Assembly: GCA_024709165.1 (NCBI GenBank)
Contig: JANJXF010000109.1
Coordinates: forward strand, 1-33,430
DNA: 33,430 bases
Source: Thiobacillus sp.
GTDB taxonomy: Bacteria; Pseudomonadota; Gammaproteobacteria; Burkholderiales; Thiobacillaceae
Reading direction: 5' to 3'
Shown here piece after piece: positions 16,277 through 30,514 of this stretch (within the stretch, counting starts at the first letter, position 1; every line of letters begins with the position of its first letter). The position numbers and the translations under genes were made by a program. The notes under the pieces are model-generated. The model was not told where the DNA came from and made no database searches. It saw only the letters and a program-made list of their open reading frames with translations.

Positions 16277-16467
16277 GTTCCCGGCAGCGCAAGACAGGCG
16301 GTGGCGTGCTCGTTTGCGGGTTCGGCCGGTTCCCGGATCATTCTGGCAGGGCGAGGAGAGGAGAGGGCAACGCGCGGGCAAGCCGTCGCATCATGCCCTT
16401 TGGCGGTGAGTCGGCATGAACACTGTGGGGGGGTCATGCGGGATCGTTCCGGCTCGTGGGCAGGAGA

Positions 16468-16947
16468 CTACTCGTTCAACCCGCCCATCGCGGACTGCAG
16501 ATAGTTCTGCACGCCGAGTTGCTCGAGCAGGCTGAGCTGGGTCTCCAAGTAGTCTATATGTTCTTCGGTGTCTTCCAGGATGTCTGCCAGAATTTCCCTG
16601 GACACGTAATCGCGCACCGATTCGCAATAGGCGATCGCCTCCAGATAGTGGCTGCGCCCGGCTTGTTCCAGCTTGAGGTCGCAGGCGAGACATTCAGGCA
16701 CGTTTTCACCGATGAGCAGCTTGTTCAGATCCTGCAGGTTGGGCAGGCCGTCGAGAAAGAGAATGCGCTCGATCAGCTTGTCGGCGTGACGCATCTCCTC
16801 GATGGATTCCTCGTATTCGTGCTTGCCAAGCGCGGTGAGGCCCCAGTTCTTGTACATGCGGGCATGGAGAAAGTACTGGTTGACTGCGGTCAGTTCGACG
16901 ATCAACGCCTTATTGAGAATCTGGATGACTTTCTTGTCGCCCTTCAT
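16468..16947 (-). CDS. bfr: Bacterioferritin
   Basis: The 159-aa four-helix protein is a cytosolic haem-containing iron store forming 24-mers. It has the haem ligand M52. Five of the six usual ferroxidase ligands are seen: E18, E51, H54, E94 and H130. The sixth, E127 in E. coli numbering, is threonine here (ACC codon; local sequence [13 protein letters not shown]), unless a neighbouring E128 substitutes. Otherwise it follows the canonical MKGDKKVIQ...NQYFLHAR sequence. The ATG at 16947 has a GAGG ribosome site. bfd lies 103 bp upstream on the same strand. Iron chemistry at the altered centre cannot be judged from sequence. Confidence 0.95.
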
Positions 16948-17050: not shown

Positions 17051-17257
17051 TCAGGCACAGGCCGCATCGGCCGGCGACAGGGAAGCCGACGGACATGCCT
17101 GGCATTCCTTGAGAATACCGTGGGCGCAGCGAGCACATTTTCCACATTCGGACGCGACGCCGAGATGCTGCCGCAGGCCGCGCATCGACTGGACGCCGCT
17201 GTGCACCGCCTCGCGCACCTGGCGATCGGTGATGGCTTGGCAGACGCAGACATACAT
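17051..17257 (-). CDS. bfd: Bacterioferritin-associated ferredoxin
   Basis: The 68-aa protein has the BFD-like [2Fe-2S] site: C4 and C6 in MYVCVCQAIT, with C38 and C41 in SECGKCARC. C44 is an additional cysteine. Bfd docks on bacterioferritin and donates electrons to its haem to release stored iron. The ATG at 17257 follows an AAGGAG ribosome site with 9-base spacing, which excludes longer readings. A strong promoter with an overlapping Fur box lies upstream, so the gene should be induced by iron shortage. bfr follows in the same direction. Confidence 0.95.
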   Translation of the reverse strand: MYVCVCQAITDRQVREAVHSGVQSMRGLRQHLGVASECGKCARCAHGILKECQACPSASLSPADAACA

Positions 17258-17364: not shown

Positions 17365-18363
17365 TCATCTGGGGTGCAACAGAATCCGGCGCGTATCCGG
17401 CGGTGAGCCGCTGGTGCGCCACAGCCACAGGGCGATCAGAGTGAAGGCCAGGCTGCGGATCGCCACTGTCGCACTGTCATGCAGACCAAGGTGTTCGCTG
17501 ACGACCGCCCCAACGAACCAGTAATAGAGGCCGATCGCCAGTGCACCCAGCAGTCGCACCGCCGTCTCTGAACGCAGACTCAGGCCGCGCACCACGATTT
17601 GCGCCAGCACATAGCTTGCGAGGGTGTAGACGGCGATGGTGGAGTAGACCTGGCCGGCCGTCTCCAGCGGGCCATTGGCGGTGAGATAGTACCCCAGGAC
17701 GAAACCCGGAAAGCTCGCTGCGAAAGCGCCAAAACCGGTTTGCAGCCAGTTGTGGGACATGCTCGATGTACCGAGGATTTGCCGTATGGATTTTCCCGGC
17801 GCCTTGTCCAGACAGCCGCGCGACACGCACTGGCTGCAGGTGGAGCAGTGCGCGTTGCCTACGGTCATCAAGGGGTTTTGCCCGTAGAGCCGCTCAACGG
17901 GAAGCACCGGGCAAATCGAATTGCAGAACCCTCCTTTCCTGCTGAACAAGGCCCCCAGCAGCAGGGTCAGAAGGGCCACCACCAGAATCGTGGCGGCAAG
18001 GGCCGGACCGTTTTCGTTGAACAGGAAACGGCGTGCGGGCACCATGAGCAGGAGCAGAAAGATCCCTGCCATTCCCGCACCCGGAAGCAGCCGGTCAGAC
18101 AACCCCCCAGGTCTGATGCGGCCCGATGCGAGCATGTTGAGCGTACCTAGCGGGCAGGCGTTGCGCCACAGTTTCGGGTTGATGAGGAATATGGCGGGCA
18201 GCAAGGGAATCACCACATCCCAGAGCAGGCGCAGGGCAAGCTCAGGTGCCAGAAACAACCCGGAAATCAGCAGGGCCGTGACCCCCAGGCCACCGATCTG
18301 CGCAATGCGCCATAGGTGGCCACCCGACGGAGAGGGCGGCCTGTTCGCGGTTGTTGTCGCCAT
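17365..18363 (-). CDS. Polyferredoxin-like 4Fe-4S membrane protein
   Basis: The 332-aa inner-membrane protein has about eight hydrophobic segments. Cysteine groups are C70 in ACPLGTL, C147 and C151 in FCNSICPVLP, and C173, C176, C179 and C184 in CSTCSQCVSRGC. This is the NapH/NosR/CcoG style of membrane electron-transfer protein, but the clusters do not follow the strict CxxCxxCxxxCP spacing. It is the last gene of the long iron operon, 11 bp after the DUF1513 gene, with a GAGGAG ribosome site. Distinct from ftrD in the same operon, it may pass electrons for reducing or oxidising iron at the membrane. That role is inferred only from context. Confidence 0.7.
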   Translation of the reverse strand: MATTTANRPPSPSGGHLWRIAQIGGLGVTALLISGLFLAPELALRLLWDVVIPLLPAIFLINPKLWRNACPLGTLNMLASGRIRPGGLSDRLLPGAGMAGIFLLLLMVPARRFLFNENGPALAATILVVALLTLLLGALFSRKGGFCNSICPVLPVERLYGQNPLMTVGNAHCSTCSQCVSRGCLDKAPGKSIRQILGTSSMSHNWLQTGFGAFAASFPGFVLGYYLTANGPLETAGQVYSTIAVYTLASYVLAQIVVRGLSLRSETAVRLLGALAIGLYYWFVGAVVSEHLGLHDSATVAIRSLAFTLIALWLWRTSGSPPDTRRILLHPR

Positions 18364-18374
18364 GCCGTCGCTCC

Positions 18375-19502
18375 TCAGGCCTCAGCGACCAGTACCCAGT
18401 GGTTGTCGAGGGCCATCGGCTGCGGCCACGGCAGAATCTTTGCCTGGGCTTCGGGATGCCAGCGCAACAACCCGCTTGCCGTGGCGACCAGCGCACCACC
18501 GCCCTTGCCAGGCCCGTGCCAGGAGGCGAGGGCATAGGCTTCCGGCATTTCCACAATGGTCTGCATTTTTTCCGGGATGCCAGGGTGCCAGAGCAAGGCC
18601 TTGTTTGCCGTGCTGGTGAGGGCGAAACCGCCGCGATGGGCCGGCGCGATGTTGCCGCAATACCCGATACCGTCGCCAATGGGGGTCGGCACGCTCAGGG
18701 TTTTGCCGTCGAACACTGCCAGTACGGGTGCCGCATGCCGCCGGGCAGCGGAAGCATGCTCCGCCTGCAGGGCAATACCGAGCAGCGCACCCGGTTCGCC
18801 GGCCGGACGGCTCCAGGCCATGTGCCGCAGCGAGAGGCGCGAATCGTCGAGCCGCCACTGGCCCAACAGCCGGCCATTGCGGCCGTCGAGTCTGACGAGG
18901 GAGGAGTCCATGTTGTCGAGGCCGAGCTTCTTGTCGTCCTCGGGACGGCGCGGCACACCACCGTTGGCGACCAGCAGCGTCCCGTCGCGATCCATCTGGG
19001 CCTCGTGAGGGTCCTCGCCGTGGGTCTCCCATTCAGCGGCTTTTTTCAGGCTGGCGGGGTCGCGTGCGGTGATCCAGCCCCGGCCCGTGCGGATGTCGGT
19101 TTCCGTGGTGTAGAGCACAGAGCGGTCCGGGGCGTAGACGGCGTGCCCGCAGAGGCGGCGGTTGCCTTCGTCCGTGAGGGCAATGCGGCGCACGATCTTG
19201 CCCTCCTTGTCGCACCGTAGTATCCAGTCGCCAAAGCGGTAGGCGGTCACCAGCAATCCGCCTGCCGGCTCGGCCAGTACGCCGTGGGCACGCCCCGGCA
19301 GCGGCACGGCATAGCGGATGCCGATTTTTTGGGTGTCCCAGTCGGCCACGAGTTCGCCCGCAAAATGGGTGTCGTTTTTGTTTGGGCCGCGCCAAGCGGC
19401 GCCCACCGCGGCCTGGCGAACCTGATCGGCCAGCGCCATGCGCGGCAGGGCCGCCAGGGCGAACAAACCCGAGAGGGTGCCCAGAGCTTGTCTTCTGTTC
19501 AT
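18375..19502 (-). CDS. DUF1513-family periplasmic protein
   Basis: The 375-aa protein starts MNRRQALGTLSGLFALAALP, a probable Tat signal. The body is rich in beta-strand repeats with GRxG-type turns, suggesting a beta-propeller. Landmarks such as RGPNKNDTHFAG, LPGRAHGV and THGEDPHEAQ match my recollection of DUF1513, a family that often sits beside iron-regulated periplasmic proteins such as imelysin. Biochemical function is unknown. An AAAGGA ribosome site precedes the ATG at 19502. The gene lies 17 bp after the TonB-dependent receptor and 11 bp before the polyferredoxin-like gene, inside the iron operon. Confidence 0.7.
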   Translation of the reverse strand: MNRRQALGTLSGLFALAALPRMALADQVRQAAVGAAWRGPNKNDTHFAGELVADWDTQKIGIRYAVPLPGRAHGVLAEPAGGLLVTAYRFGDWILRCDKEGKIVRRIALTDEGNRRLCGHAVYAPDRSVLYTTETDIRTGRGWITARDPASLKKAAEWETHGEDPHEAQMDRDGTLLVANGGVPRRPEDDKKLGLDNMDSSLVRLDGRNGRLLGQWRLDDSRLSLRHMAWSRPAGEPGALLGIALQAEHASAARRHAAPVLAVFDGKTLSVPTPIGDGIGYCGNIAPAHRGGFALTSTANKALLWHPGIPEKMQTIVEMPEAYALASWHGPGKGGGALVATASGLLRWHPEAQAKILPWPQPMALDNHWVLVAEA

Positions 19503-19519
19503 GTCGTGTCCTTTTCTAC

Positions 19520-21778
19520 TCAGAATTTGTATTCGCCGGTGAGAATCGCCTTGCGCTTCGTGCCAGGTACGGTGAAGGCACCGTTGTCGTAAATCGAATC
19601 GAAGTACAGCTTGTCGAACAGGTTCTGCACGTTCAGGCGCAGCGCCCAGCTTTTTTGCTCGTAAGCCAGCATGGCATCCCAGCGAGCGTAGGCCGGCGCC
19701 GTATTGGGGTGGAAGGTGCTGCCGCCTGGCAGGGTGGGAACGGCGCCTGTGCCGCTGGGGTTGTAGGCATAACGATCACCCTTGGCTTCCACGCCGCCGC
19801 CGAGCTTCCAGCCGCCGCCCAGCTTGTAGGTGGTCCACAGGTTGAAGGTGTATTTCGGCGTGTTGCGTGCCCGCTGGCCTTTGTATCCGGGGTTGGCAGA
19901 GGTGATGACACCGGTGGTGGCATTCACGTTCTCGGCCACTTCCAGGATTTTGGCGTCCATCAACGCCAGGCCGGCGAAAATTTCCCAGTCGTCGTTCACC
20001 CGACCCGCCGCTTCCAGTTCCAGACCGTCGGTGCGACGTTTCTTGGTGAGGATGGCGGCGGTGGATTCCAGGTCGGTGCTGCGTTCCCACTCCTTGTCGG
20101 CGCGGTAGAGGGCGGTGCGCAGCGCCAGGTCGCCTTCGAACAACAGCCATTTGGCGCCCAGTTCCAGAACCTTGGAGCGTTCCGCCGGCATGGGGGCAAC
20201 CGTGAGCTGATACAGGTCAGCCGTAGGGCTGAAGGAATCGGAGAAGCCCAGATAGTAATGGGTTTCGTCGCTGGGATGATAGGAGAGGGCGGCGCGCGTG
20301 CTCATTTCGTCGTATTTGAGCCTGGGCGAGGTGACGCTGGAATAATCGGCATCCATCCAGTCCTGACGCAGGCCGAGGGTAGCTTTCCACTGCGGGATGA
20401 ATTCCACCGTGTCCTGTATATAGAAGGCGTAGGAATCGGACTTGAACTTGGTGGCGGTTCCGGTGACAGCCACCTGATTGGGTCGGTAGTCCGGCGGGGT
20501 GGCGATGGTGGTGCCGCCGAAGTTCTGCAGGCCCTTGCGGAAGCTGTCTTCCTGCAGGAATTCCACGCCGGTCAGAAATTCGTGTTGCATGCCCCAGGTG
20601 CTGAATTTGTTGTTGAAGTCCGATTGCAGGGTGAGCGTCTCGTAATCCATGGCCCGGGTCACGGAACCGCCGACCGTGCCCTGGGGGTTTGGAGGTGTGG
20701 TCAGATGGGGCTTGATGGCCCAGTAGGTGCGCTCGTAATCGGCGTAGCGCAACTGGGTGCGCCACTCGCTCCTGGGCGAGAAACGGTGGGTATAGGTGGC
20801 TGTGCTGATATTGGTTTCGCCCTCATCGAAGTTGCGGTCGACACCCCAGTAATAGTGGGCGGGCAACACCGTGCCGGGGCGGCGTGTGCTGGAGTCGAAA
20901 CTGACGCCATAGTCCATTCGGTCATCCGTGGTGGTCACGATGTGGCTCAGGATGAACTCGTCATTCGTGGAGATGCCGAGGCCGAGACTGGCGGCCAGCC
21001 CTTCCCGGTGAATCTCCGGTTCCGCGCCGGTGCTGGGATTGGAGCGCCAACTTTCGTCGTCACGGTGCATGACGTTGATGCGCAGCGCCGTATTTTTCCC
21101 CAGACGCTTGTTGAAATCGCCCGTGCCTTCCAGATAGCCGTTGTTGCCGGCGCTGACTGTGAGCTTGTGGCGATCCGTCAGCAGTGGGGTTTTGCTCACC
21201 TGGTTGATGACCCCGCCGGCCTGGCCCCGGCCGAAGAGCATGGCGCCGGCGCCGCGCAGCACGTCCACCTGCTCCAGGTTGAAGGTTTCCCGATCGTACT
21301 GCGCGGTATCGCGGATACCGTCCAGGTAGATATCGCCAAAGGTGTAGAAGCCGCGCAACATCATGTTGTCGCCCGAGCGTCCTCCCTCGGCGGCGTTGAA
21401 CGTGACGCCGGAGACGTTACGCAGGGCCTCCCGCAGGCTGCTCACCTGCTGCTCCTCCATGATCTTGTTGGTCACGGTGGTGATCGCCTGCGGAATGTCG
21501 TGCGGATCCTGCAGTGTCTTGCCGACCCGTGTGACCGAAGCGCGGTAGCCGTCCCGTGCGGCTTCGGCTTCGGCGTCGGTCTCGACGGTGACGGTGGACA
21601 ACACCTGGTCACGTCCGGTGGCGTGTGCCGCCTCCTCGGCCAGGACCGGTAGTGACAGGCTGGCCATGATCAGCGCACTCAGGGGCAGCAGGGCCGGGTT
21701 GGGGCCGAGCTTGATGCGATGTGCAATGGTGGGTCTGTCCGCCTTGTTCGGGCGGGTCTGTTTGTTGGTACGAGACAT
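19520..21778 (-). CDS. TonB-dependent catecholate-type siderophore receptor (Fiu-like)
   Basis: The 752-aa outer-membrane receptor has a long N-terminal signal region ending near ALIMASLSLPVLAEE (~residue 48). A putative TonB box follows (LSTVTVET, ~60-67), then a plug domain (~80-210) with PQAITTVTNKIM, LRNVSGVTFN and DVLRGAGAMLFGRG. A 22-strand barrel ends in a terminal Phe (GEYKF). Plug motifs and length resemble Fiu and related receptors for Fe-catecholate compounds. The ligand is uncertain. An AAGGAG ribosome site is present at the ATG. The 85-bp gap to exbD is the largest in the operon and holds a 10-bp direct repeat (GCTGGCTGGC at 21825 and 21842), but I see no promoter or Fur box there. 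Confidence 0.9.
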   Translation of the reverse strand: MSRTNKQTRPNKADRPTIAHRIKLGPNPALLPLSALIMASLSLPVLAEEAAHATGRDQVLSTVTVETDAEAEAARDGYRASVTRVGKTLQDPHDIPQAITTVTNKIMEEQQVSSLREALRNVSGVTFNAAEGGRSGDNMMLRGFYTFGDIYLDGIRDTAQYDRETFNLEQVDVLRGAGAMLFGRGQAGGVINQVSKTPLLTDRHKLTVSAGNNGYLEGTGDFNKRLGKNTALRINVMHRDDESWRSNPSTGAEPEIHREGLAASLGLGISTNDEFILSHIVTTTDDRMDYGVSFDSSTRRPGTVLPAHYYWGVDRNFDEGETNISTATYTHRFSPRSEWRTQLRYADYERTYWAIKPHLTTPPNPQGTVGGSVTRAMDYETLTLQSDFNNKFSTWGMQHEFLTGVEFLQEDSFRKGLQNFGGTTIATPPDYRPNQVAVTGTATKFKSDSYAFYIQDTVEFIPQWKATLGLRQDWMDADYSSVTSPRLKYDEMSTRAALSYHPSDETHYYLGFSDSFSPTADLYQLTVAPMPAERSKVLELGAKWLLFEGDLALRTALYRADKEWERSTDLESTAAILTKKRRTDGLELEAAGRVNDDWEIFAGLALMDAKILEVAENVNATTGVITSANPGYKGQRARNTPKYTFNLWTTYKLGGGWKLGGGVEAKGDRYAYNPSGTGAVPTLPGGSTFHPNTAPAYARWDAMLAYEQKSWALRLNVQNLFDKLYFDSIYDNGAFTVPGTKRKAILTGEYKF

Positions 21779-21863
21779 CAGCGACTCCTTCTGGTTTTGT
21801 CAGCATTGAACGACATACGAGAGAGCTGGCTGGCATCAGGGGCTGGCTGGCGGAAATGGAACA

Positions 21864-22286
21864 TCAACGGGCTGGCCGCGGGTCTGTGACGAAACCGATC
21901 CGGCTCAGTCCCAGACGGCTGGTTTCAGCCATGATCTCGGCGATGTGGCGGTAAGGTCCCGCCTGATCGGCCAGAATGTGAAGTTCAGGTTGGGGCGAAC
22001 GGGCAGCGGCCTCGCGCAACTGAAGCGTGAGCTCGGCATGCGACACCGGCTCGCCGTTCCAGCTGATTTCCCCGTTTGCACCGATTGCGATGCGCACCGG
22101 CTCCTGCGGCGATGTGTCGATCTGGCTGGCGGCCCGTGGCAGATCGACCTTCACTGCGTGGGTCATGAGCGGTGCAGCGACAATGAAGATCACGAGCAAC
22201 ACCAACATGACGTCGATCAGCGGAATCATGTTGATCTCCGCCACCGGTTGGTTGTTTGCGTTGGAGGAGAAACCGCCGAAGGCCAT
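21864..22286 (-). CDS. exbD: Biopolymer transport protein ExbD
   Basis: The 140-aa protein has a short cytoplasmic start, one membrane helix (residues ~22-42, IPLIDVMLVLLVIFIVAAPL) with the proton-handling D25, and a periplasmic domain. It works with ExbB to energise TonB using the proton gradient. Its ATG shares a base with the exbB stop (TAATG). Size and motif are canonical. Its place directly after tonB-exbB and before a TonB-dependent receptor shows a dedicated energising unit. Confidence 0.95.
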   Translation of the reverse strand: MAFGGFSSNANNQPVAEINMIPLIDVMLVLLVIFIVAAPLMTHAVKVDLPRAASQIDTSPQEPVRIAIGANGEISWNGEPVSHAELTLQLREAAARSPQPELHILADQAGPYRHIAEIMAETSRLGLSRIGFVTDPRPAR

Positions 22287-23008
22287 TACGCAGCCCTCGT
22301 CATGGTTTGCTTCTCCACACCCGCGTTTTCTGCGCGGATGCCGGTGGACATGAAGCCGAACAGGTCATGCGCAAAGCCGTCAAGTTCGGCCAGCAGCAGG
22401 CGGTTGGCACGGGTGAATGCGTTGTAGGCGAGCACGGCAGGAATTGCCACGGCCAAGCCCAGCGCGGTCATGATGAGCGCTTCGCCGACCGGCCCCGCCA
22501 CCTGATCCAACCCACTCTGACCCGTCATGCCGATGTTGAGCAGGGCGTGATAGATCCCCCAGACCGTACCGAACAGGCCTACGAAGGGTGCGGCGGAGGC
22601 AACCGAGGCGAGCACGGTATGGCCATATTCCAGACGCGCGGTGTCCTGCTCGATGGCCCGACGCAGAGCCCGCGTAAGGAATTCGTCGGCTGAACCCGCT
22701 TCGACCAGGCGCTGACTGCTGCGATTGCGATGCTGATCGGCGGCGCGCAGTCCATGATGCGTCAGGTGGGAGAAAGGATCTCCCACGCCTTGCTCGTGCA
22801 GATGGGCCGTTACCTCGTTCATGTCCGTCGCATTCCAGAAGCGGGAGAGAAAGGACCGTGCATGGCGCCGCGTGCGCCATTGCCTGATGGATTTGGCAGC
22901 GATGAGATACCAGGTGGCGACCGACATCGTCACCAGCACCAGCAGCAAAAACTGGCCCAACGCATCGGCGTGGCCGAGGAAGTGGGCGAACCCCATGTCT
23001 TGTTGCAT
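22286..23008 (-). CDS. exbB: Biopolymer transport protein ExbB
   Basis: The 240-aa inner-membrane protein of the MotA/TolQ/ExbB family has three membrane segments (residues ~18-40, ~130-155 and ~175-200). The conserved VASAAPFVGLFGTVWGIYHAL and LGLAVAIPAVLAYN signatures are present. It forms the pentameric proton channel with ExbD. The ATG at 23008 is chosen for its AAGGAG ribosome site and family N-terminus MQQDMGFAHF; a longer frame into tonB is not used. Its start is 2 bases after the tonB stop. Confidence 0.95.
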   Translation of the reverse strand: MQQDMGFAHFLGHADALGQFLLLVLVTMSVATWYLIAAKSIRQWRTRRHARSFLSRFWNATDMNEVTAHLHEQGVGDPFSHLTHHGLRAADQHRNRSSQRLVEAGSADEFLTRALRRAIEQDTARLEYGHTVLASVASAAPFVGLFGTVWGIYHALLNIGMTGQSGLDQVAGPVGEALIMTALGLAVAIPAVLAYNAFTRANRLLLAELDGFAHDLFGFMSTGIRAENAGVEKQTMTRAA

Positions 23009-23010
23009 GT

Positions 23011-23817
23011 TCAACTCCTTACGGAAAAAGAAATAGGAACGACGACCCATGCGGCAATTGCATTGCCGCCCTGTCGAGCGGGAGCGAAGCGCCATTTGCG
23101 CACGGCCTTCGCAGCTGCGTGATCCAGACGTTCGAAGCCGCTGCTGCTTCGGATTTCGACACGGGACGCGTTGCCATCGGCCTCGACGTAAACGCGCAAC
23201 AGGACCTTGCCCTGCTCGCCGAGGCGGCGCGATAGAGGCGGGTAGGCCGGCGCGGGATTATCCAGATAGTCGGCATCGAAGCGCGGCGGTTCGACTGGCG
23301 GGACCTCGGAGGTGACGACCGCGGCCGACACAACCGGCACCGGAGTGGACGCGGGGACGGGTGCGGGAGACGGAGTGGGCACCGTGACCATGGGTTCCGG
23401 GGGCGCCGGAGCCGTTTCGATCTCGGCTGGAGCCGAATCAGGCACGATTAGAACGGGTGGCACTACCGTCGGTCGTGGCGGCATCGGTCGTGCCGGCAAG
23501 GGTGTGGGTGGCTCCAGCGCCGGTTCCGGGCGAGGAGCTTCAATCAGGCTGACCACAAGCGGCTGTTCCAGCATGATCGTACGGGTGACGGGCTCGCTGC
23601 CGAGCAGGACGAAGGCAACCAGGACATGCATGCCGACAACTCCCCCAAGGAGGCGCCATTCAGTGCGTGGCTGTGTGGGGGTGGCGATGCTCGTCGTGGG
23701 GCCGTACGTCTCTCGGCGGAAAGTCGGCGCCGCCGCGGTGGACGGGCTGTACAGCATGGCTGATCCCGCCGGAGCAGGGGGGAGCTGTGATGAATTGGCG
23801 TGGAGCAGCGAGTTCAT
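23011..23817 (-). CDS. tonB: Energy transducer TonB
   Basis: The 268-aa protein has a longer than usual N-terminal cytoplasmic tail (~55 residues), then one membrane anchor (LLGGVVGMHVLVAFVLLG) containing the conserved histidine. A Pro-rich periplasmic spacer follows (residues ~95-175), then the C-terminal TonB domain (YPPLSRRLGEQGKVLLRVYV and KAVRKWRFAPA). It carries energy from ExbBD to the TonB box of outer-membrane receptors. The ATG overlaps the hemP stop by 4 bases (ATGA). An in-frame internal Met (residue 21) is a possible shorter start. The receptor of the same operon is its probable client. Confidence 0.93.
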   Translation of the reverse strand: MNSLLHANSSQLPPAPAGSAMLYSPSTAAAPTFRRETYGPTTSIATPTQPRTEWRLLGGVVGMHVLVAFVLLGSEPVTRTIMLEQPLVVSLIEAPRPEPALEPPTPLPARPMPPRPTVVPPVLIVPDSAPAEIETAPAPPEPMVTVPTPSPAPVPASTPVPVVSAAVVTSEVPPVEPPRFDADYLDNPAPAYPPLSRRLGEQGKVLLRVYVEADGNASRVEIRSSSGFERLDHAAAKAVRKWRFAPARQGGNAIAAWVVVPISFSVRS

Positions 23818-23984
23818 GCGGTGAGGATCAACTTGTTGGCGGTGGTGATGCGCAAGCGGTATTCCCGGTCACCGTGGACGATGACCACCACCTTGCCGCC
23901 GGCGAAGAGATCCTCGCTGCGCAGGCGCGGTGGCGCGGTGGGCTGGGTGGGGATGGGGGACGACAGCGAGTGCTTCTCTTTCAT
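23814..23984 (-). CDS. hemP: Hemin uptake protein HemP (HmuP-like), 56 aa
   Basis: This short gene is easily missed. The product starts MKEKHSLSSPIPTQPTAPPR and ends with the HemP core: SEDLFAGGKVVVIVHGDREY followed by RLRITTANKLILTA. Related HemP/HmuP proteins act as positive regulators of TonB-dependent haem receptor genes in other Proteobacteria. No haem permease or haem receptor gene is seen here, so it may regulate this iron operon. The start is 6 bp after the ftrD stop, and the stop overlaps the tonB ATG by 4 bases. The ribosome site is weak, so translation probably depends on coupling. The family call is strong; the role is inferred. Confidence 0.85.
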   Translation of the reverse strand: MKEKHSLSSPIPTQPTAPPRLRSEDLFAGGKVVVIVHGDREYRLRITTANKLILTA

Positions 23985-23990
23985 GACGGC

Positions 23991-25442
23991 TTACCAGACG
24001 TAAAACTGTTGATGCCAGGCCCACAGCGGCAGCGCGCCTGCGAGCGCGACACCGGCTGCTGCGGGCAAGCGTCCGAGCCGCCACGCCAGCGTGACCGACC
24101 AGAGCGCGGCAGCCGTCAACAGCCCCATGCGCAGCGGATTGGCCCAGGCCAGCACGATGTTTTCCTGGAACAGCTGGCCGGTGGTGAGATGGGACAGGCC
24201 GACGAACACGCTGATGCCCCCCAGGGGAATCAGCGTCATGGCCAGCCGGCTCCAGGGCAGTTCTGCAAGCATGGCGGCGGCGCGCAGGCAAAGCCAGAGC
24301 CAGCCACCCACGAGCAGGGCCGTGGCCGCCATGTAGGCCAGCAGCATGGCACCGTCCAGCCAGGTGAAGGCGTCGTTCAGTTGCGGGTAATCGGTGAACA
24401 GCCACCAGTGCCCGACCGTGTCCAGCGGCCACCAGAACTCCCTGTCGATCAGCCAGGTCGCAGCCGACTGTTTGGCCGTGATGAACCAGGGGGAAACCGA
24501 CCATTGGAAAGCGCCCAGCGCCACGCCCAACATGCCGAACACCAGCAGACGCGCAAGCCAGATGTCCTGCGCCCCACCTCCTGTCGACGGGGCAGGCGCG
24601 GCGAGCACCTCGGCTTCAGGAGAACGCCAGCTCAAGGTCACTGCGCCGCGTTGGCCGGCACAGCGCCCGCACATGTGACAGGCGGAGCCGCTTTGCATGC
24701 GCCGGATATCGATGAGCGGCGCGCAGTTCACTGGAGGACTCTTGGGATGTGAAGGCGCATCCCAGGCAGTCTGATCGACGGCAAAATGCACGGGTGCGAT
24801 CTTCGCGAGCAGACCGAACACCCCGGATACCGGGCACAGGTGCCGGCACCACACGCGCTTGTTGCGGCCATACAGCAGCCCGACGGCGATCGCGGCGATG
24901 GTGGAGCCACCGAGAATAAGCAGGGCGGGTTTTGGATAATCGTAGACGCTCACCATCTGCCCGAAGACCGTGGTCAGGACGAAGGCGACGAACGGCCAGC
25001 CGGCCCATTTCAGCCAGGCCGGAATGTGGCGGTTGAGGCTCCAGCGCGAGGCGAACTCGGTGAGCACCCCTTCCGGGCAGAACAGGCCGCACCAGGCCCG
25101 CCCCATGGTCATCACCGACAAGATGACGAAAGGCCACCAGATACCCCAGAACAGGAACTGGGCGAAGCGGGTGAGGTTGTCGAAGATGTGATCGGCTTCT
25201 CCCGGCAACGGCAGGAAGGCCGGGACAGCCACCACCACGGTGTAGAACAGCACCACCATCCACTGCGCGGCGAGAATGACGTTGCGGTGCTGGCGCATCC
25301 AGAGCCCTAGGCGGGCGATGGCCGTCACCTTCGGCCCCGCGACGGGGCCTGGAGGGTGCGTGCCCGGTGTCGCCCAGGTCACCACGGTGCCCGCGCCCTT
25401 GCCATCTTTCGCGCGGGATAGCGACACGGCACGGGCGTTCAT
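23991..25442 (-). CDS. ftrD: FtrD-like polyferredoxin membrane protein of the ferrous iron importer
   Basis: The 483-aa inner-membrane protein carries NapH/CcoG-like iron-sulfur motifs: C118 and C122 (CGLFCPEG), C199 and C203 (CRHLCPVSG), then C240, C255, C258 and C261 (CHMCGRC). About nine to ten hydrophobic segments flank them. In Bordetella and Brucella FtrABCD, the equivalent protein is thought to take electrons from iron oxidation during FTR1-mediated uptake. The ATG at 25442 overlaps the ftrC stop by 4 bases, and the reading frame upstream of it is the shadow of ftrC. hemP starts 6 bp downstream. Assignment rests on motif pattern plus the FTR1, P19 and cupredoxin neighbours. Confidence 0.85.
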   Translation of the reverse strand: MNARAVSLSRAKDGKGAGTVVTWATPGTHPPGPVAGPKVTAIARLGLWMRQHRNVILAAQWMVVLFYTVVVAVPAFLPLPGEADHIFDNLTRFAQFLFWGIWWPFVILSVMTMGRAWCGLFCPEGVLTEFASRWSLNRHIPAWLKWAGWPFVAFVLTTVFGQMVSVYDYPKPALLILGGSTIAAIAVGLLYGRNKRVWCRHLCPVSGVFGLLAKIAPVHFAVDQTAWDAPSHPKSPPVNCAPLIDIRRMQSGSACHMCGRCAGQRGAVTLSWRSPEAEVLAAPAPSTGGGAQDIWLARLLVFGMLGVALGAFQWSVSPWFITAKQSAATWLIDREFWWPLDTVGHWWLFTDYPQLNDAFTWLDGAMLLAYMAATALLVGGWLWLCLRAAAMLAELPWSRLAMTLIPLGGISVFVGLSHLTTGQLFQENIVLAWANPLRMGLLTAAALWSVTLAWRLGRLPAAAGVALAGALPLWAWHQQFYVW

Positions 25443-26269
25443 CGCTTCACCGCCACGGGTTTCGCGCACAGCACCCACATCACGGCGAGTGTCCACCACG
25501 CGGCAAGCGCCAGGTAGCTCATGCCCGTTGGCAGGCTGCGCCAGCCGGTGAAAGCGGCAAGAAGGCCGCCGACGCGTGTGCTGTCGTCGAGGACGCCGCT
25601 TGCGTCCCAGAGGGGGTCGGCAAGGGTGGGCAGCGCCTCCAGACCGACCAGCTTGTCGGTGCCGGTCACCAGCAACGCACCGCCCAGGAGCAGCAGCAGG
25701 ATCTCGGTGAGTCGGAAGAACGCCCGCCAGGAAAACCAGCGCGCACCGCGCACCAGCGCAGCGTAGGCGACGAGCGCGAGCAGAAAACCGAGTGCACCGC
25801 CGGCGAGCAGGTGGCCCGCCGAATCGTTGCCGGCCGCGCCGTAGAGAAAGATCACCGTTTCCGCCCCCTCGCGGCCGACCGCGATGGCGGCGAGCAAGGC
25901 CATGCCCGCCCACCGTGTGCGCTCGACCGCGGCGGACATGCCGGATTCCAGTTCCCTCTTCAGTCCCGCGCCGTGCCGTCGCATCCATGCCACCATCTGG
26001 AAAATGAGCGTGGCGGCGAGCAGTGGCATGATGGCCTGGAACCACTCCAGCGTCGTATCGTCGGCCCAGGCGGACAGGCCCAGCAGTGCAAGGGCGAGCA
26101 GGGCGGCCAGGCCGAGCCCGGCCGCCACGCCGCCCCATAGCCAGAGTGTGGCGCGCCGGCGTGTTTCGGCGATCAGATCCGACTGGGCGGTGAGCCAGCC
26201 GTGCAGAATGCCGACCACCAACATGGCTTCGATGGTTTCACGCCAGACGATGAAGGCAGCGTTACCCAC
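25439..26269 (-). CDS. ftrC: FTR1-family iron permease (FtrC/EfeU-like)
   Basis: The 276-aa inner-membrane protein has seven hydrophobic segments and both iron-translocating REXXE motifs: R10-E14 (RETIE) in the first segment and R133-E137 (REGAE) in the fourth. It imports iron from the periplasm. The start is GTG at 26269, one base after the DUF2325 stop; the protein would lose its first REXXE if started later. It overlaps ftrD by 4 bases. EfeO/EfeB partners are absent; P19 and cupredoxin partners place it in the Ftr type. Confidence 0.93.
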   Translation of the reverse strand: MGNAAFIVWRETIEAMLVVGILHGWLTAQSDLIAETRRRATLWLWGGVAAGLGLAALLALALLGLSAWADDTTLEWFQAIMPLLAATLIFQMVAWMRRHGAGLKRELESGMSAAVERTRWAGMALLAAIAVGREGAETVIFLYGAAGNDSAGHLLAGGALGFLLALVAYAALVRGARWFSWRAFFRLTEILLLLLGGALLVTGTDKLVGLEALPTLADPLWDASGVLDDSTRVGGLLAAFTGWRSLPTGMSYLALAAWWTLAVMWVLCAKPVAVKR

Positions 26270-26270
26270 G

Positions 26271-27581
26271 TCAATTTCCTGCGATCTGCACCTGCCCGTC
26301 GGCCAGACGGGCGAGTGCCGCGGCGAAGCTCGCGACGCCGGAGCCGTTCACCAGTACGCAGGGCTTGCCGGCCTGTTTGCAGTGCTTCTTGAGCTGGTAG
26401 TAAGCGAGATGGCCGACGCAATCCGTGGGACAGATCACCGCGTCGGAGGCGGACAGAAGATCGGGCAGCCGCGACATTGCCTCCTCGCGGCCGCCGTCGT
26501 GGTGGATCAGACGCACGCCGAGGCGTTCGGCCAGTTGCCTATACTGCGGCAGGAGTGGCGTGCGGCCACCGACACAGAGCACGCAACGGCCCGCAAGCTG
26601 GTTCGGGCAGGCATGGCAGCCGCCGCCGCAGGCCGGGGCTGCCGTCTCGGCGAGCCCGAGGCGCTCGAGGGCGTCACGCTCGGCCCGGGCCTCATCGCGT
26701 TCGCGCAGAAGGCGGCTATTTTCCGCCTCCAGCGCGGCTGCGCGGGAGGCGGAGTTGCGCAGGCGCGCAGCCTCGTCGGCAAGAGCCAGCAGGCGGCGAC
26801 CCATGTTCACCATGGCAACGCCGGATTCCAGTTCGGCGAGACGTGCGTGCAGCACGCTGTCGGTGTCGGTGCGCAAGGCGGCTTCCGCCGCCGTGCGCTC
26901 CAGGTCACGGATGCGTTCGTTCGCCTCGGCCCGTTCGCGGGCATGGCGTGCGGCCTCGCGGGCCGTCTGTTCCTTTGTCCGGGCAAGCTCGCGTTCCAGC
27001 CATTCCACGCGGCGCAGGTCGGCGGCCTGGCTGGCGCCGACCTGATGCGAGAGCATATGCAGATCGGCGTAAACGACGTGCTGGGTCGCCGTGCTGGCCG
27101 CTTTGTGCGTCAATGCTGCCCAAACGGCTCCCGCTACTTCGCCGCGTTCCAGATGTTGTTTCCACAACGCCAGGACGTCGGCGTCCTCCTTGACCTGGTC
27201 GAAACGGCGAACCTGAACGGCGTACTTGCGCTCCAGTTGTTTCTGCATGAATTCCGACGTGGCATTGCGTTCGAGGCTCGTCGACACCGCTTCCAGGTGC
27301 AGGTCGTAGGGGTCGACGTGGCGGCCTGCGTGGCCTGTCCTGTGCGTCAGTTTCTTCAAATCGTCCAGATCGAAGCAGGTGCCGACCACCGGGCAGTGGT
27401 ATTTCCCGTCCAGTTCCCAAAGCTTGCGGCGGCGAGTCGAAGTGCGCCTGTTTTTTTGGGGAGGAAGGACTGGGGACGACGGAGCATGGTTTGCCTCCGC
27501 GGCGGCGCCAGTATCCTGACTTTCTTCCAGGTTCCTGCCAATCAAAATGGAGGTGAGCTTCCGCATGGGATGTTTACACAT
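26271..27581 (-). CDS. DUF2325 protein with coiled coil and cysteine cluster
   Basis: The 436-aa soluble protein has three parts. The N-terminal region (~55-180) contains YHCPVVGTCFDLDDLKKL with C63 and C69. A long charged coiled coil follows (~190-310, rich in Glu, Arg and Ala). The C-terminal DUF2325 domain (~330-430) has a nucleotide-binding-like VLCVGG, IHHDGG and DAVICPTDCVGH. A cysteine group at the junction (C318, C322, C325, C333, C336) looks able to bind metal or an Fe-S cluster. Function is unknown; its place between ftrB and ftrC suggests a cytosolic iron-handling or sensing role. Its ATG overlaps the preceding small gene by 8 bases. Confidence 0.8.
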   Translation of the reverse strand: MCKHPMRKLTSILIGRNLEESQDTGAAAEANHAPSSPVLPPQKNRRTSTRRRKLWELDGKYHCPVVGTCFDLDDLKKLTHRTGHAGRHVDPYDLHLEAVSTSLERNATSEFMQKQLERKYAVQVRRFDQVKEDADVLALWKQHLERGEVAGAVWAALTHKAASTATQHVVYADLHMLSHQVGASQAADLRRVEWLERELARTKEQTAREAARHARERAEANERIRDLERTAAEAALRTDTDSVLHARLAELESGVAMVNMGRRLLALADEAARLRNSASRAAALEAENSRLLRERDEARAERDALERLGLAETAAPACGGGCHACPNQLAGRCVLCVGGRTPLLPQYRQLAERLGVRLIHHDGGREEAMSRLPDLLSASDAVICPTDCVGHLAYYQLKKHCKQAGKPCVLVNGSGVASFAAALARLADGQVQIAGN

Positions 27582-27774
27582 GGCGCACGTTCTCCCGTGC
27601 CTCCTCCAGCGCCGTGCTCATGCGCCCGTACAGCGTTCGCGTGTCGCCGTCCACGTCTGAACGATCGGCAATCTGGTCGAGCAGATGGGCTGCGACGCGG
27701 GCGGAGTGGGAACACCCGGTCAGCTGGAAGCGCACAAGATGATTGAGGGCGCCGGCAAGCAGGGATTCGGTCAT
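27574..27774 (-). CDS. Unrecognised 66-aa protein in the iron operon
   Basis: I do not recognise this protein. It starts MTESLLAGALNHLVRFQLTG at 27774 with a strong GAAGGAGA ribosome site, and has no signal peptide or membrane segment. It is predicted to be helical with one cysteine (C21, in TGCSHSARVAAHLLDQIA) and an acidic C-terminal helix. It overlaps the DUF2325 start by 8 bases, so the two are probably translated together and may interact. The good ribosome site and tight packing support a real gene. Confidence 0.7.
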   Translation of the reverse strand: MTESLLAGALNHLVRFQLTGCSHSARVAAHLLDQIADRSDVDGDTRTLYGRMSTALEEARENVRHV

Positions 27775-27790
27775 GAGCGGTCTCCTTCTG

Positions 27791-28123
27791 TCATTTCGCA
27801 ACGATGCGGCCCTTGGCCGTATCGGGGTGGAATTCGTCGAAGTAGTCGTACTCGCCCGGCTTCAGCGGGGCAATGACGACGAAAGACTGCGCACCGGGTG
27901 CGAGCACCTTCTCCTTGCGCAGACGCAGACTTTCGAACTCGATCGCATCGCGCCCTTCGTTCCTGATCACGATCTTGAAGCGCACTCCGGCGGGCACCTC
28001 CAGCACGGCTGGAGTCAGACGTCCGTCACGCGCCACCAGGGTGTAAGTGGGCAGTTCGGCGTGGGCCGTGCCGGCTGCGAGGGCCAGCCATACCAGGGTC
28101 AGACGGACGAGGTGACGTGTCAT
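27791..28123 (-). CDS. ftrB: Periplasmic cupredoxin-like protein (FtrB-like)
   Basis: The 110-aa protein has a signal peptide (residues 1-22, ending GTAHA) and a single cupredoxin-type beta domain with VPAGVRFKIVIRNEG and PGEYDYFDEFHPD motifs. It lacks the Cys of a blue-copper site, as do EfeO-like cupredoxin domains. In FtrABCD systems this component is proposed to oxidise or relay ferrous iron to FTR1. The ATG at 28123 is used because the two preceding codons lead to no standard start. It lies 12 bp after the porin gene and 16 bp before the 66-aa gene. Function is by family and context. Confidence 0.82.
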   Translation of the reverse strand: MTRHLVRLTLVWLALAAGTAHAELPTYTLVARDGRLTPAVLEVPAGVRFKIVIRNEGRDAIEFESLRLRKEKVLAPGAQSFVVIAPLKPGEYDYFDEFHPDTAKGRIVAK

Positions 28124-28135
28124 GGACAATTCCCG

Positions 28136-29596
28136 TCAGAAAGTCAGCTGGGCGCGCAGGCCGAGGATGTGGGTGTCAGGCAGGCTGGAGTCGGCGCCTG
28201 GCCGGCGAACGAACTGATAATCCGGGCTGAGTTCGAACTGCGCGTTCACCCGCCAGCGGTAGTAAAGCTCGGCCAGCTGTTCGCTTCCGGACACGCCGGG
28301 ATTCGCCTGCTCGTAGGCGTCCGCGGCGGCGAGCCAACCCAGCGCCAGACCGAAGCTGTCGCCGGCGCGGTCCCAATAGTTTCCGGAAAACTCGGTCCCC
28401 AGGGTGAGGGCGCGGTCGAAGGTCGGATGGCCGGAGATGGCATGGCCGTAGCGACCGAACAGGGTCACCCCGTCCCCAATACGCTGGTCCAGGGACAGCC
28501 CCCAGCCAGTCTGGACTTCCAGGGTCGAGCCGCTGAAATCCGTGGCGCGGCCGTTGCGCCAGGCGTAGAGGCGGTAGTTGCCTTCCAGCCCGCCGAACAT
28601 GCGCTGCGAAGTCTGCGCCTGCGCGATGACAAAGGGTTTCTTGAGGCTGTCGTCGAAGGCGGCACCGGCATCGGAACCGAACAGACCCAGCGAGACGCCC
28701 CAGCCGATGGGCGCCTGCGTGTCGTTATGGTAGGCCAGCCGTAACCCCGGCGAGAAGCCATAGGCATCCACGCCCGCGGCGCCCCCCGCATCGAGCAGCG
28801 GGTTGTGGACGAAAGCGAGGTTCATGAACTTGAGCGTTTCGTCGTCGGCGGCCGCGTTCTGGTCGAAGAACAGGAAGGGGTCGAGCTTGCCGAAAGTGAC
28901 GTCAAGATGCTCCCGGCTTGCGCCGAGTGGTTTGTCGTCGAGCGGCACGCCGAGCTGGTACCAGGCTTGGGCCAGGATGGGCGAGGCGTTGTCGGGCTGG
29001 CTTCCGCCCAGCTGGAATGCCGTGGCATTGGGCACGGAAAACAGCGGGTTGAGGCTGCCGAGCCCTTCACCCTGACCCATGCGGAAATGGAAGAACAGGC
29101 TGCCTTCGCTGGTGCCAAGACTGCCGCCGGGCAGACTGACTTGGGCATCGCCCCGCCAGGACAACTGGCTTTCGCTCTTGCCGGTTGCGCTTGCTCCGGC
29201 GTTGGCGTGCTGGGCGACCGATGTGAACGACACGCCCGCGGAGATGCCTTCGAGTGCCTCGATCGCGCGCGCGTGCTTCTGCATGCCGAGAGCCTGGAAC
29301 TCCACTGCTTTCAGGCGGGTCGCGATCTCCGGCTCGTTCTGCGAGAGGCGATCGCTATCCATCGCGTCGGCGAGTTTCGTGTTAGCGGCTTCCAGTTCCT
29401 TGACGCGTGCCTCCAGGCCGGGGGCGGGCAGGGCGCCGAGCTGGCGCTCCAGTTCGGCGTTGCGCGCTTCCAGCCGGGCGAGGCGTTCCTGCATCTGTTG
29501 CAGCGTATGGGCGAGATCGGTCGACGACTCGACCGCCGCGGCCGGCATGGCCCAAGCCATAGACACCGCGAGCACAAGGGGTTTGATGACTTTCAT
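28136..29596 (-). CDS. Outer-membrane porin with N-terminal coiled coil (OprB-like)
   Basis: The 486-aa protein has a signal peptide (residues 1-22, ending PAAAV), then a periplasmic coiled coil (~25-85) with heptad-like Leu/Ala/Glu repeats. A beta-barrel-rich body follows, ending in a terminal Phe (LRAQLTF). Alternating aromatic strands such as GWGLSLDQRIGDGVTLFGRYG and AELYYRWRVNAQFELSPDYQ support an outer-membrane porin resembling the OprB carbohydrate-selective group. The ATG at 29596 lies 1 base after the ftrA stop. Its place inside an iron operon suggests passage of iron or a small iron chelate. That is inference. Confidence 0.75.
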   Translation of the reverse strand: MKVIKPLVLAVSMAWAMPAAAVESSTDLAHTLQQMQERLARLEARNAELERQLGALPAPGLEARVKELEAANTKLADAMDSDRLSQNEPEIATRLKAVEFQALGMQKHARAIEALEGISAGVSFTSVAQHANAGASATGKSESQLSWRGDAQVSLPGGSLGTSEGSLFFHFRMGQGEGLGSLNPLFSVPNATAFQLGGSQPDNASPILAQAWYQLGVPLDDKPLGASREHLDVTFGKLDPFLFFDQNAAADDETLKFMNLAFVHNPLLDAGGAAGVDAYGFSPGLRLAYHNDTQAPIGWGVSLGLFGSDAGAAFDDSLKKPFVIAQAQTSQRMFGGLEGNYRLYAWRNGRATDFSGSTLEVQTGWGLSLDQRIGDGVTLFGRYGHAISGHPTFDRALTLGTEFSGNYWDRAGDSFGLALGWLAAADAYEQANPGVSGSEQLAELYYRWRVNAQFELSPDYQFVRRPGADSSLPDTHILGLRAQLTF

Positions 29597-29597
29597 C

Positions 29598-30152
29598 TCA
29601 GTAGCCGCCCCGTTTGCCGATTCCTGCATAGGCGAACGTCCATTCGATGTCGAAGGCCTTGAACCAGGGGCGTACGCCGGTCAGGCGGTCGGTGTGGCGG
29701 TGGAAGTGATGGCCGGCGTGGTTGGCGGGATCGTTGGGCGGCAGGATGGTGAACTTGACGCGGTACTTGCCCGGTCCCATGAGCTTGACGTTGTCGCCGT
29801 AATGCGGGCCGTCGCTCGCCACCATGGGTAGAAAATCACCGCCGATGCAGCTGCCTCCCTGCTTGCATACTTCGTAACGGACCAGCAGGTAAGGCACCCA
29901 CTCGCCTTCGGCGAAGCCGTTGGGATTGCTGCCGAGTGCACGAATATCCGCTTCCAGATGCACGTCCGCCTTGTCGGCGGGAAGCATCGTGTGGCCCATG
30001 ACCGATTCCATTTCCACAGGTTGCAGGTAGACGCCGGCGATTTCCATGCCGTGACGCTGCTGGGGGGCGCCGATCGGATACTCGGCGGCGTGGGCGGGGA
30101 GGGCAAGGCCGGCCACCAGGGCCAGGCCGGACAGGGTGCGCAGTACACGCAT
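29598..30152 (-). CDS. ftrA: Periplasmic ferrous iron-binding protein, P19 family (FtrA-like)
   Basis: The 184-aa protein has a signal peptide (residues 1-22, ending PAHA) and a P19/Tpd-type domain. Metal-site features are the MESVMGHTML segment, ADVHLEADI (~62-70), and the GKYRVKF strand leading to the His-rich HAGHHFHRHTD (145-155). P19 proteins bind Fe and Cu in the periplasm and pass iron to FTR1. C96 and C102 could form a disulfide. An AAAGGAGAAG ribosome site supports the ATG at 30152. The open frame extends upstream without a stop into a HemP-like segment. It is the first confident gene of the Fur-controlled operon. The symbol follows the Bordetella/Brucella system. Confidence 0.87.
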   Translation of the reverse strand: MRVLRTLSGLALVAGLALPAHAAEYPIGAPQQRHGMEIAGVYLQPVEMESVMGHTMLPADKADVHLEADIRALGSNPNGFAEGEWVPYLLVRYEVCKQGGSCIGGDFLPMVASDGPHYGDNVKLMGPGKYRVKFTILPPNDPANHAGHHFHRHTDRLTGVRPWFKAFDIEWTFAYAGIGKRGGY

Positions 30153-30260
30153 GGACTTCTCCTTTGCAGTAGTAAGGGCTAAAAAACATTCATGGCTGGC
30201 TACTGGGGCGGAGCGGCCCGCTGGCTGGCTGGTGCAGGCACGATGGCGCCTGCCGGTCTG

Positions 30261-30371
30261 TTTCGTGAGCCAGAGCTTGCCGCTGCGCGTCAGACTCAAC
30301 ACGCAGCGTTCGGTCCCGTGCTCGATCACCCGCAGTCGTCCCGCGCCGGGCAGGTCGCTGGCACGGACCAC
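30261..30371 (-). pseudogene. HemP-like segment in the ftrA leader, in frame with ftrA
   Basis: Reading from a possible GTG at 30371, the frame gives VVRASDLPGAGRLRVIEHG then TERCVLSLTRSGKLWLTK. That matches the HemP pattern (S-x-x-L-x-x-x-G-R-x-L-x-I-x-H-G...LxLTRxGKLxLTK). No stop follows; the frame runs on through a 36-residue linker into ftrA. No ribosome site is visible and the only nearby ATG (30415) is in another frame. It may be a decayed hemP, a small gene that lost its stop, or a real fusion. Confidence 0.5.
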
Positions 30372-30421
30372 GCGCGGGAGCGTGCGGCGCCGCAGCTGGC
30401 GGCAGCGGTGATCATGCAACT

Positions 30422-30450
30422 AGGATAACGATAATCATTCGCATTGACAA
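30422..30450 (-). promoter_or_regulatory. Promoter of the 14-gene iron operon
   Basis: On the minus strand TTGTCA (30450-30445) and TATCCT (30427-30422) are spaced by 17 bp. Transcription should start near 30415, leaving a ~263-base leader before ftrA. An A-rich tract (minus strand, 30480-30462) sits about 12 bp upstream of the -35 and could act as an UP element. The Fur box covers the spacer and -10. Confidence 0.7.
30424..30442. promoter_or_regulatory. Fur box of the iron operon
   Basis: GATAACGATAATCATTCGC matches the 19-bp Fur consensus GATAATGATAATCATTATC at 16 positions. It overlaps the -10 and spacer of the operon promoter, so iron-loaded Fur should block transcription of the downstream iron genes. 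Confidence 0.85.
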
Positions 30451-30514
30451 GCCCAGGGTCGCTTTTTTTGTTGTTTTTTTCCTTCGCTTTGTGAAACGTC
30501 CGGAAACCGGCACC

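Follow-up and report, generated by a model that had tools for sequence, protein, structure and literature searches.

A row of 14 genes occupies the reverse strand of a 33,430-nucleotide stretch of Thiobacillus sp. DNA (assembly GCA_024709165.1, contig JANJXF010000109.1, positions 1 to 33,430; "the window" means this whole stretch) between positions 17365 and 30152, as defined by open reading frame (ORF) calls and a Pfam profile search of the window proteins. The order is ftrA, porin, ftrB, g66 (a 66-aa gene), DUF2325, ftrC, ftrD, hemP, tonB, exbB, exbD, receptor, DUF1513, and ferr2 (Table 1). Adjacent genes are separated by -8 bp (overlap) to +17 bp, and the sole exception is a distance of 85 bp upstream of the receptor gene. 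Two leaders in the row carry boxes that resemble the HmuP-responsive element (HPRE). We consider it fairly likely that the row is an iron-starvation operon of known modules, repressed by Fur at its promoter and acted on by HemP at these two leader sites.

The Fur box at the head of the row is the only match in the window at ≤3 mismatches to a 19-mer consensus, and no match appeared in 100 shuffles. It overlaps a sigma-70-like promoter. Between positions 16300 and 30700 there are two promoter-like sites, one at the row head and one at bfd, compared with a shuffle mean of 2.1; the count alone is therefore no evidence, and only agreement with Fur-like sequence speaks for them. The row may be a single transcript, and the box points to iron control by Fur at this one promoter. 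The genes bfd and ferritin come after the last gene of the row, behind the second promoter-like site. The source assembly has 2.65 Mb in 219 contigs; among named relatives, Thiobacillus sp. 65-29 (L053) stands closest (ftrC 89%).

An earlier description of this DNA made without database searches (the sequence-only reading) had reported 14 genes of the stated families on one strand, tight packing with a gap only before the receptor, and a single Fur-type promoter at the head. The ORFs, Pfam matches, gene coordinates, and sole Fur box agree with it on each of these points. It had overlooked the hemP-like frame at the head, both HPRE-like sites, and the placement of bfd and ferritin behind a separate promoter-like site.

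Table 1. Features of the iron gene row and its immediate neighbors, in window coordinates.
Feature	Coordinates	Strand	Evidence and remarks
Sigma-70-like promoter	30422..30450	-	TTGTCA-17-TATCCT; overlaps Fur box
Fur box	30424..30442	.	3 mismatches to 19-mer consensus
hemP1, hemP-like frame	30153..30419	-	PF10636 25.2 bits (cut-off 25); in frame with ftrA, no stop between
HPRE-1	30194..30230	-	Two AGCCAGCC boxes around GGGC/GCCC hairpin; 41 nt before ftrA start
ftrA, periplasmic P19-like iron protein, 184 aa	29598..30152	-	PF10634 Iron_transport E 2.4e-57; PDB 7r4z "FtrA-P19 protein" E 5.3e-70
Porin (candidate FtrP), 486 aa	28136..29596	-	PF04966 OprB E 1.8e-22; signal peptide, coiled coil, 16-strand barrel
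ftrB, cupredoxin-like, 110 aa	27791..28123	-	PF13473 Cupredoxin_1; Brucella FtrB 8vuk E 2.8e-22
g66, 66 aa	27574..27774	-	Three-helix model; HemP-joined relative in L095
DUF2325 protein, 436 aa	26271..27581	-	PF10087
ftrC, FTR1/EfeU-type permease	25439..26269	-	PF03239 FTR1
ftrD, polyferredoxin-like membrane protein, 483 aa	23991..25442	-	PF12801 Fer4_5; NapH-like
hemP2, intact, 56 aa	23814..23984	-	PF10636 E 1.5e-15
tonB	23011..23817	-	PF03544 TonB_C
exbB (MotA/TolQ/ExbB family)	22286..23008	-	PF01618 MotA_ExbB
exbD	21864..22286	-	PF02472 ExbD
HPRE-2	21825..21851	-	GCCAGCCAGC-CCCTGAT-GCCAGCCAGC; in 85-bp gap, 46 nt before receptor start
TonB-dependent siderophore receptor, Fiu-like, 752 aa	19520..21778	-	PF07715+PF00593; TIGR01783
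DUF1513 protein	18375..19502	-	PF07433 E 1.2e-53; N-terminal RR signal-like stretch
ferr2, Fe-S membrane protein, second polyferredoxin-like gene	17365..18363	-	Fer4_5 E 0.066; NapH models
bfd	17051..17257	-	Neighbor outside row; own promoter-like site 17318-17291
Bacterioferritin-type ferritin	16468..16947	-	PF00210; neighbor of row

Conserved box pairs before ftrA and the receptor gene

HemP/HmuP/ChuP-family proteins are described as regulators, and ChuP raises the output of chuR and vbuA in Chromobacterium violaceum (PMC9131926; this paper and PMC11966278 are cited throughout for those parts of them that were available). The HPRE is credited in that paper to Amarelle 2019. In the chuR HPRE quoted there, two AGCCAGCC boxes are separated by 3 nt; the quoted vbuA HPRE has a single box (PMC9131926).

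Comparison of the hemP1-ftrA junction with its relatives identified a best-kept block composed of AGCCAGCC, a short variable stretch, and TAGCCAGCC, about 40 nt before ftrA (HPRE-1). The second site (HPRE-2) accounts for the one gap of any length between genes of the row. Boxes of the AGCCAGCC type in leaders of iron or heme receptor genes are the mark by which HPREs are recognized, and such boxes were found here; both window sites are filed as HPRE-like because the chuR and vbuA HPREs quoted in PMC9131926 hold the same boxes. A looser pattern, GCCAGCCN{3,26}GCCAGCC (two GCCAGCC boxes 3-26 nt apart), has four matches in the window, all at HPRE-1 or HPRE-2, compared with a shuffle mean of 0.06.

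The spread of the element was followed in a survey of named loci (the best 80 of 304 ftrC relatives) and in genomes of the order Burkholderiales. Among the 74 named loci with enough upstream sequence, 15 have the strict box pair upstream of ftrA, while the pair was absent from five control sets (reversed, reverse-complement, before porin n=41, before ftrC n=74, and before ftrD n=72). Two further loci (L086 and L111) have the element with one altered base in the first box, and in L055 both boxes are present about 80 nt apart, which fits neither pattern. Upstream of 22 receptor orthologues, the box pair was found 18 times on the sense strand and never on the opposite one; the background rate, in random windows taken from these loci, was 81 of 4201.

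A scan of 300 genomes of the order with the strict pattern gave 37 matches, spread over 34 genomes; the reversed pattern gave 13. Thirty of the 37 matches were examined (one of the other seven is known from L191/L220), and 21 of these precede genes for iron uptake or iron control; the other nine are mostly in long frames. The targets of the 21 are receptors (8), ftrA (4), tonB (2), g66-like genes (2), and five single genes: a Pfam OprB porin, a porin-like gene with no Pfam match, an ECF (extracytoplasmic function) sigma factor, a multicopper oxidase, and a PKHD hydroxylase located behind a receptor. The assembly from which the window comes has one strict match. The looser pattern has 21 matches there, compared with 5 in the control; four are in the row, and 13 of the 14 examined among the remaining 17 lie in long open frames. 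An Rfam identity for the leader element was considered and rejected, as no family reaches its gathering score anywhere in the window; around the site there are two weak, unrelated matches (E 0.7-1).

Pairing between the boxes was assessed by comparing positions 4-7 after the first box with positions 4-7 before the second, with the right halves shuffled 2000 times. Among 36 distinct elements, 78% of cells pair compared with 58% after shuffling, and none of the 2000 shuffles reaches the observed value. The same holds without the ftrA elements (66% compared with 48%; 0/2000). This covariation of the stem suggests that the element acts as RNA. Receptor-type sites have short spacers and no stem; hairpin and short spacer may be two ways to keep the boxes close. 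No published description of the hairpin form or of an ftrA site was found in a literature search that lay mostly outside subscription journals.

Linkage of the element to hemP and g66

The PF10636 family is found in 119 of the 300 genomes. Where an element precedes an iron gene, 20 of the 21 genomes have it (the exception is G254), compared with 99 of the 279 others (Fisher 4.6e-8), a p-value that, like the others for hemP co-occurrence, overstates independence as the genomes are related to one another. Adjacency was also found, as 12 of 22 elements begin ≤75 nt from the end of a same-strand hemP match. In the 700 nt upstream of ftrA, a hemP match is present in 9 of 15 loci with the element and in 4 of 57 loci without it, and two of these four carry the relaxed form.

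Three hemP matches occur in the genome of the window, namely hemP1, hemP2, and a copy on contig 196 (G000:C196:30663-30764, L287). The third lies behind a Fur-like box and is followed by a single GCCAGCC box and a small g66-like frame. The sequence-only reading had treated hemP as one more part of the row. The HemP family consists of described regulators (PMC9131926), and the row has two HPRE-like sites. As a side observation, HemP ends in LILTA in the window (23814-23984), L053:12286-12453, L070:12220-12387, and L100:14587-14709, and three of these four copies are mid-row beside tonB; most other HemP copies listed end in LILTK or LLLTK.

The g66 protein has no Pfam match, and neither a PDB sequence search nor a PDB fold search returned a significant match. 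Its predicted structure has three helices (pLDDT 89). In L261 and L265, relatives of g66 come immediately after the element. In L095:1098-1466, from a Rhodocyclaceae metagenome-assembled genome (MAG), one open frame of 123 aa joins a g66-like part (38% identity) to a HemP domain (E 6e-16). The element offers this so far unnamed 66-aa family a function to guess.

The ferrous-iron core

The presence of ftrA (P19), ftrB (cupredoxin), ftrC (FTR1), and ftrD (polyferredoxin) on one strand places the row among FtrABCD/FtrAPBCD loci, and Fe2+ uptake is the predicted function of this core. The nearest solved structures to FtrA in a PDB sequence search are FtrA-P19 proteins. FtrB keeps the E-F-E...R-K-E motif of 8vuk (aligned EFES-LRLRKEK) as well as D-x-F-H. 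Two REXXE motifs are expected in FtrC, and both are present: RETIE at residues 10-14 and REGAE at residues 133-137. The roles of the iron-binding glutamates of FtrB are treated in PMC11966278.

The porin model has a 16-strand barrel after a coiled coil (mean pLDDT 75), and its best PDB fold is OprB of Pseudomonas putida (4gey). Among the named loci, 78 of 80 have ftrA, ftrB, and ftrC together, and in 54 of the 78 the ftrA and ftrB genes flank a porin gene; ftrA-porin-ftrB-ftrC-ftrD is thus a common five-gene unit. A five-component FtrAPBCD system of Rubrivivax gelatinosus is also in print (PMC11966278, where Steunou 2022 is cited), and from its position the Rubrivivax P may belong to the same porin family. 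The sequence-only reading knew of no description of the full gene set. For the porin-Ftr part this novelty is rejected on both counts, the frequency of the porin and the published system. Plasmid matches to the porin are limited to three Candidatus Manganitrophus records at 34-35% identity. A row in L169:6361-12652 has hemP, ftrA, porin, ftrB, g66, DUF2325, ftrD, bfd, and ferritin, with no ftrC match in the row.

TonB system, receptor, and additional genes

The exbB and exbD products belong to the expected Pfam families and are below all equivalog cut-offs. ExbB scores 122 with the ExbB model (cut-off 206) and 171 with TolQ (cut-off 221); ExbD scores 80 (cut-off 216) and 76 (cut-off 153) with the ExbD models and 103 with TolR (cut-off 127). 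By these profile scores both are slightly closer to TolQ/TolR than to ExbB/ExbD, and they are named exbB and exbD because of the neighboring tonB. The receptor is above the cut-off of TIGR01783 for TonB-dependent siderophore receptors (243.8; cut-off 223.5) and below that of the NCBIfam Fiu equivalog (271.8 bits; cut-off 686). Its nearest PDB relatives are catecholate receptors such as Fiu (6bpm), together with 5fp1, 5nec, and 5fok. By sequence comparison it is a receptor of the ferric-siderophore type rather than a ferrous one.

Matches for ferr2 are weak (Fer4_5 E 0.066; NapH models E 4.5e-4 and 1.5e-3, far below cut-off), and relatives were found in only three other genomes among 399 of the order. 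Two of these relatives are the N-terminal part of proteins of 881-884 aa with 2Fe-2S and NAD(P)H/FAD domains (L183:8401-11055 and L184:9445-12090); the L183 protein matches Pyr_redox_2 (E 6.8e-61) and Fer2 (E 2e-6). A role for ferr2 as an electron carrier across the inner membrane is plausible, since its relatives are joined to 2Fe-2S and pyridine-nucleotide oxidoreductase domains. Long DUF2325 proteins occur near bfd, ferritin, or hemP matches in L171, L172, L174, and L175, so this family seems to be tied to iron housekeeping beyond Ftr. Literature searches on DUF1513 with iron, and on ftrA, ftrC, porin, and cupredoxin together, found no papers.

Recurrence of the gene order

The complete 14-gene order was found again in one of the 80 named loci, L053, which keeps aroF ahead of the row and bfd and ferritin behind it. 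The order that the sequence-only reading proposed to look for in relatives, from ftrA through g66, DUF2325, ftrC, and ftrD to hemP and tonB, does recur: it extends through exbB and exbD in L053 and L070, both Thiobacillus MAGs, and in no other of the 80. On the same strand as ftrC, g66 was found in 7 loci, DUF2325 in 5, tonB in 6, the receptor family in 5, DUF1513 in 2, and ferr2 in 1; these counts are lower bounds as many loci are short.

Two more distant loci also join Ftr to an orthologous receptor. Candidatus Accumulibacter 66-26 (L110) has ftrA-porin-ftrB-ftrC-ftrD-tonB-exbB-exbD-receptor (63% identity), and betaproteobacterium UBA1934 (L131) has tonB-exbB-exbD-hemP-ftrA-porin-ftrB-ftrC-ftrD-receptor (51%)-DUF1513 (48%). 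In the receptor tree, the window receptor groups with that of L053 and then with two ftr-less receptors (support 0.99). The receptors of the window, L110, and L131 are on different branches, so the linkage looks recurrent, having arisen or been moved more than once.

Orthologues of the receptor (E ≤ 1e-130) are present in 35 of 399 genomes of the order. Of the 34 other genomes with such an orthologue, 20 were examined, on contigs of 10-20 kb, and no ftr gene was near the receptor in any of these 20 neighborhoods; a receptor dedicated to Ftr is therefore not supported. In six of the 20, exbD ends 15-178 bp upstream of the receptor. L218 and L232 have the order hemP-element-porin-g66-tonB-exbB-exbD-receptor with no ftr gene, and their porin is 45% identical to the Ftr porin.

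Interpretation and alternatives

The row would combine three modules: an FtrAPBCD importer, a hemP-TonB-ExbBD-siderophore-receptor module, and an Fe-S electron carrier with DUF1513. These are known modules, joined by Fur and probably by HemP. Under plentiful iron, Fur would close the single promoter. Under scarce iron, HemP made from hemP2 and from the third hemP would act on two HPREs in the mRNA, before ftrA and before the receptor, and would raise the output of exactly the genes behind each, as ChuP does with chuR and vbuA. Proximity of the conserved boxes would be ensured in one of two ways, by a short spacer or by a hairpin that can vary in sequence as long as it still pairs. Fe2+ would pass the porin, be handled by FtrA and FtrB, and enter through FtrC with FtrD as electron partner, while ferric siderophore would enter through the receptor, powered by TonB-ExbBD. 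Because an HPRE-like site precedes ftrA, HemP may govern ferrous-iron uptake in addition to heme and siderophore receptors.

Several observations weigh against this account. In the survey, 59 of 74 ftrA loci have no strict-form element. For six of the 15 ftrA loci with the element, no hemP was found within 700 nt upstream, and L131 shows the converse, a hemP with no element. A hemP is also frequent (9/13, p 0.04) in the genomes where the matches were either taken for chance hits or left unexamined. The ftrA elements alone hardly vary in the stem (94% compared with 90%; 14/2000 shuffles reach it), folding of single hairpins is weak (p<0.05 in 17/38, compared with 2/9 in a presumed chance set, and p 0.27 for the window's own), and the L245 element has no stem. 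The chuR HPRE has no hairpin and vbuA has one box, so the hairpin form is likened to the HPRE by box sequence. Finally, in comparison with the intact hemP of L053, hemP1 has lost the frame in its N-terminal part and has no stop codon; either real decay or an assembly error damaged hemP1.

The sequence-only reading proposed that the whole row is one coupled machine. In its most explicit form, the receptor would import ferric siderophore to the periplasm, electrons from ferr2 and DUF1513 would free Fe2+, and FtrAPBCD would import it, a bacterial counterpart of yeast reductive iron uptake in which TonB would drive the first step. In its favor, the row holds the receptor and TonB system together with an Fe-S carrier and Ftr, and Ftr is joined to an orthologous receptor in L110 and L131 as well, on separate branches and with DUF1513 in L131. 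The ferr2 relatives form the membrane part of NAD(P)H-oxidizing proteins, and a cytosolic electron route is therefore plausible; in a search confined to the row, no ABC permease for ferric siderophore was found. However, the ferric-siderophore type of the receptor and the 20 ftr-less orthologue neighborhoods leave the coupling unproven, ferr2 is rare, and FtrD already supplies an electron partner. We regard such a machine as unlikely, though not implausible. It is rather unlikely, too, that two independent routes are simply stacked behind a Fur promoter for economy, with HemP acting on neither and the boxes targeted by, for example, a small RNA with GGCUGGCU stretches. The modules are found apart in other genomes, and two GCCAGCC repeats could pair with such an RNA, but no Rfam family matches the region, hemP is linked to the element in the same 300 genomes and adjacent to it in 12 of 22 cases, and ChuP has a published effect on transcripts with the same boxes (PMC9131926). 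A role of the hemP genes as markers of heme uptake, with part of the row serving as a heme system, is very improbable and was already disfavored: apart from the PF10636 family name, hemin uptake protein, little recommends it, as the row has no heme-type permease, binding protein, or degradation gene, and the receptor is above the cut-off for the siderophore subfamily and far below that for the heme subfamily.

Control by Fur and HemP remains the reading that we favor. Somewhat more tentatively, and with real doubt, HemP could be a general post-transcriptional iron regulator in Burkholderiales (GTDB). It would read a two-box RNA element, its boxes kept together by a covarying hairpin or a short spacer, in the leaders of genes for ferrous importers and siderophore receptors as well as of tonB, an ECF sigma factor, and an iron-related oxidase, and its partner would be g66, the small three-helix protein encoded beside it. 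If so, the Thiobacillus operon would be self-contained: a single transcript would carry both target sites along with the genes of their regulator. If HemP reads the ftrA site, a single small protein would set the order of preference among the cell's iron sources once Fur has opened the genes. The element is an exact mark for this purpose, giving the genes that carry it, the box positions, and the base pairs to keep.

Comparison with known systems

FtrABCD of Bordetella, Brucella, and Burkholderia has the same ftrA, ftrB, ftrC, and ftrD families in the same order. In contrast to it, the Thiobacillus row is interrupted by a porin after ftrA and by two genes after ftrB, and it continues downstream into a TonB system and receptor. 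FtrAPBCD of Rubrivivax gelatinosus shares the five-part order, in which one gene is inserted between A and B; here the porin takes that P position. A downstream TonB system or receptor is not mentioned for Rubrivivax in the available parts of PMC11966278, whereas both are present here. TonB-ExbBD modules beside their own receptor are a familiar arrangement, and exbD lies close to the receptor in six of the 20 orthologue neighborhoods; here the module is placed behind ftrD in the same row.

As in the HemP/HmuP/ChuP systems with HPREs (PMC9131926), hemP is in the row, and the distances are similar: boxes in print lie 26-49 nt before the starts of TonB-dependent receptors, and those in the window lie 41 and 46 nt before ftrA and the receptor. 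The present element differs from the published HPRE in that one site precedes a ferrous importer, a covarying hairpin lies between the boxes, and tonB, an ECF sigma factor, an oxidase, and a porin are added to the candidate targets.

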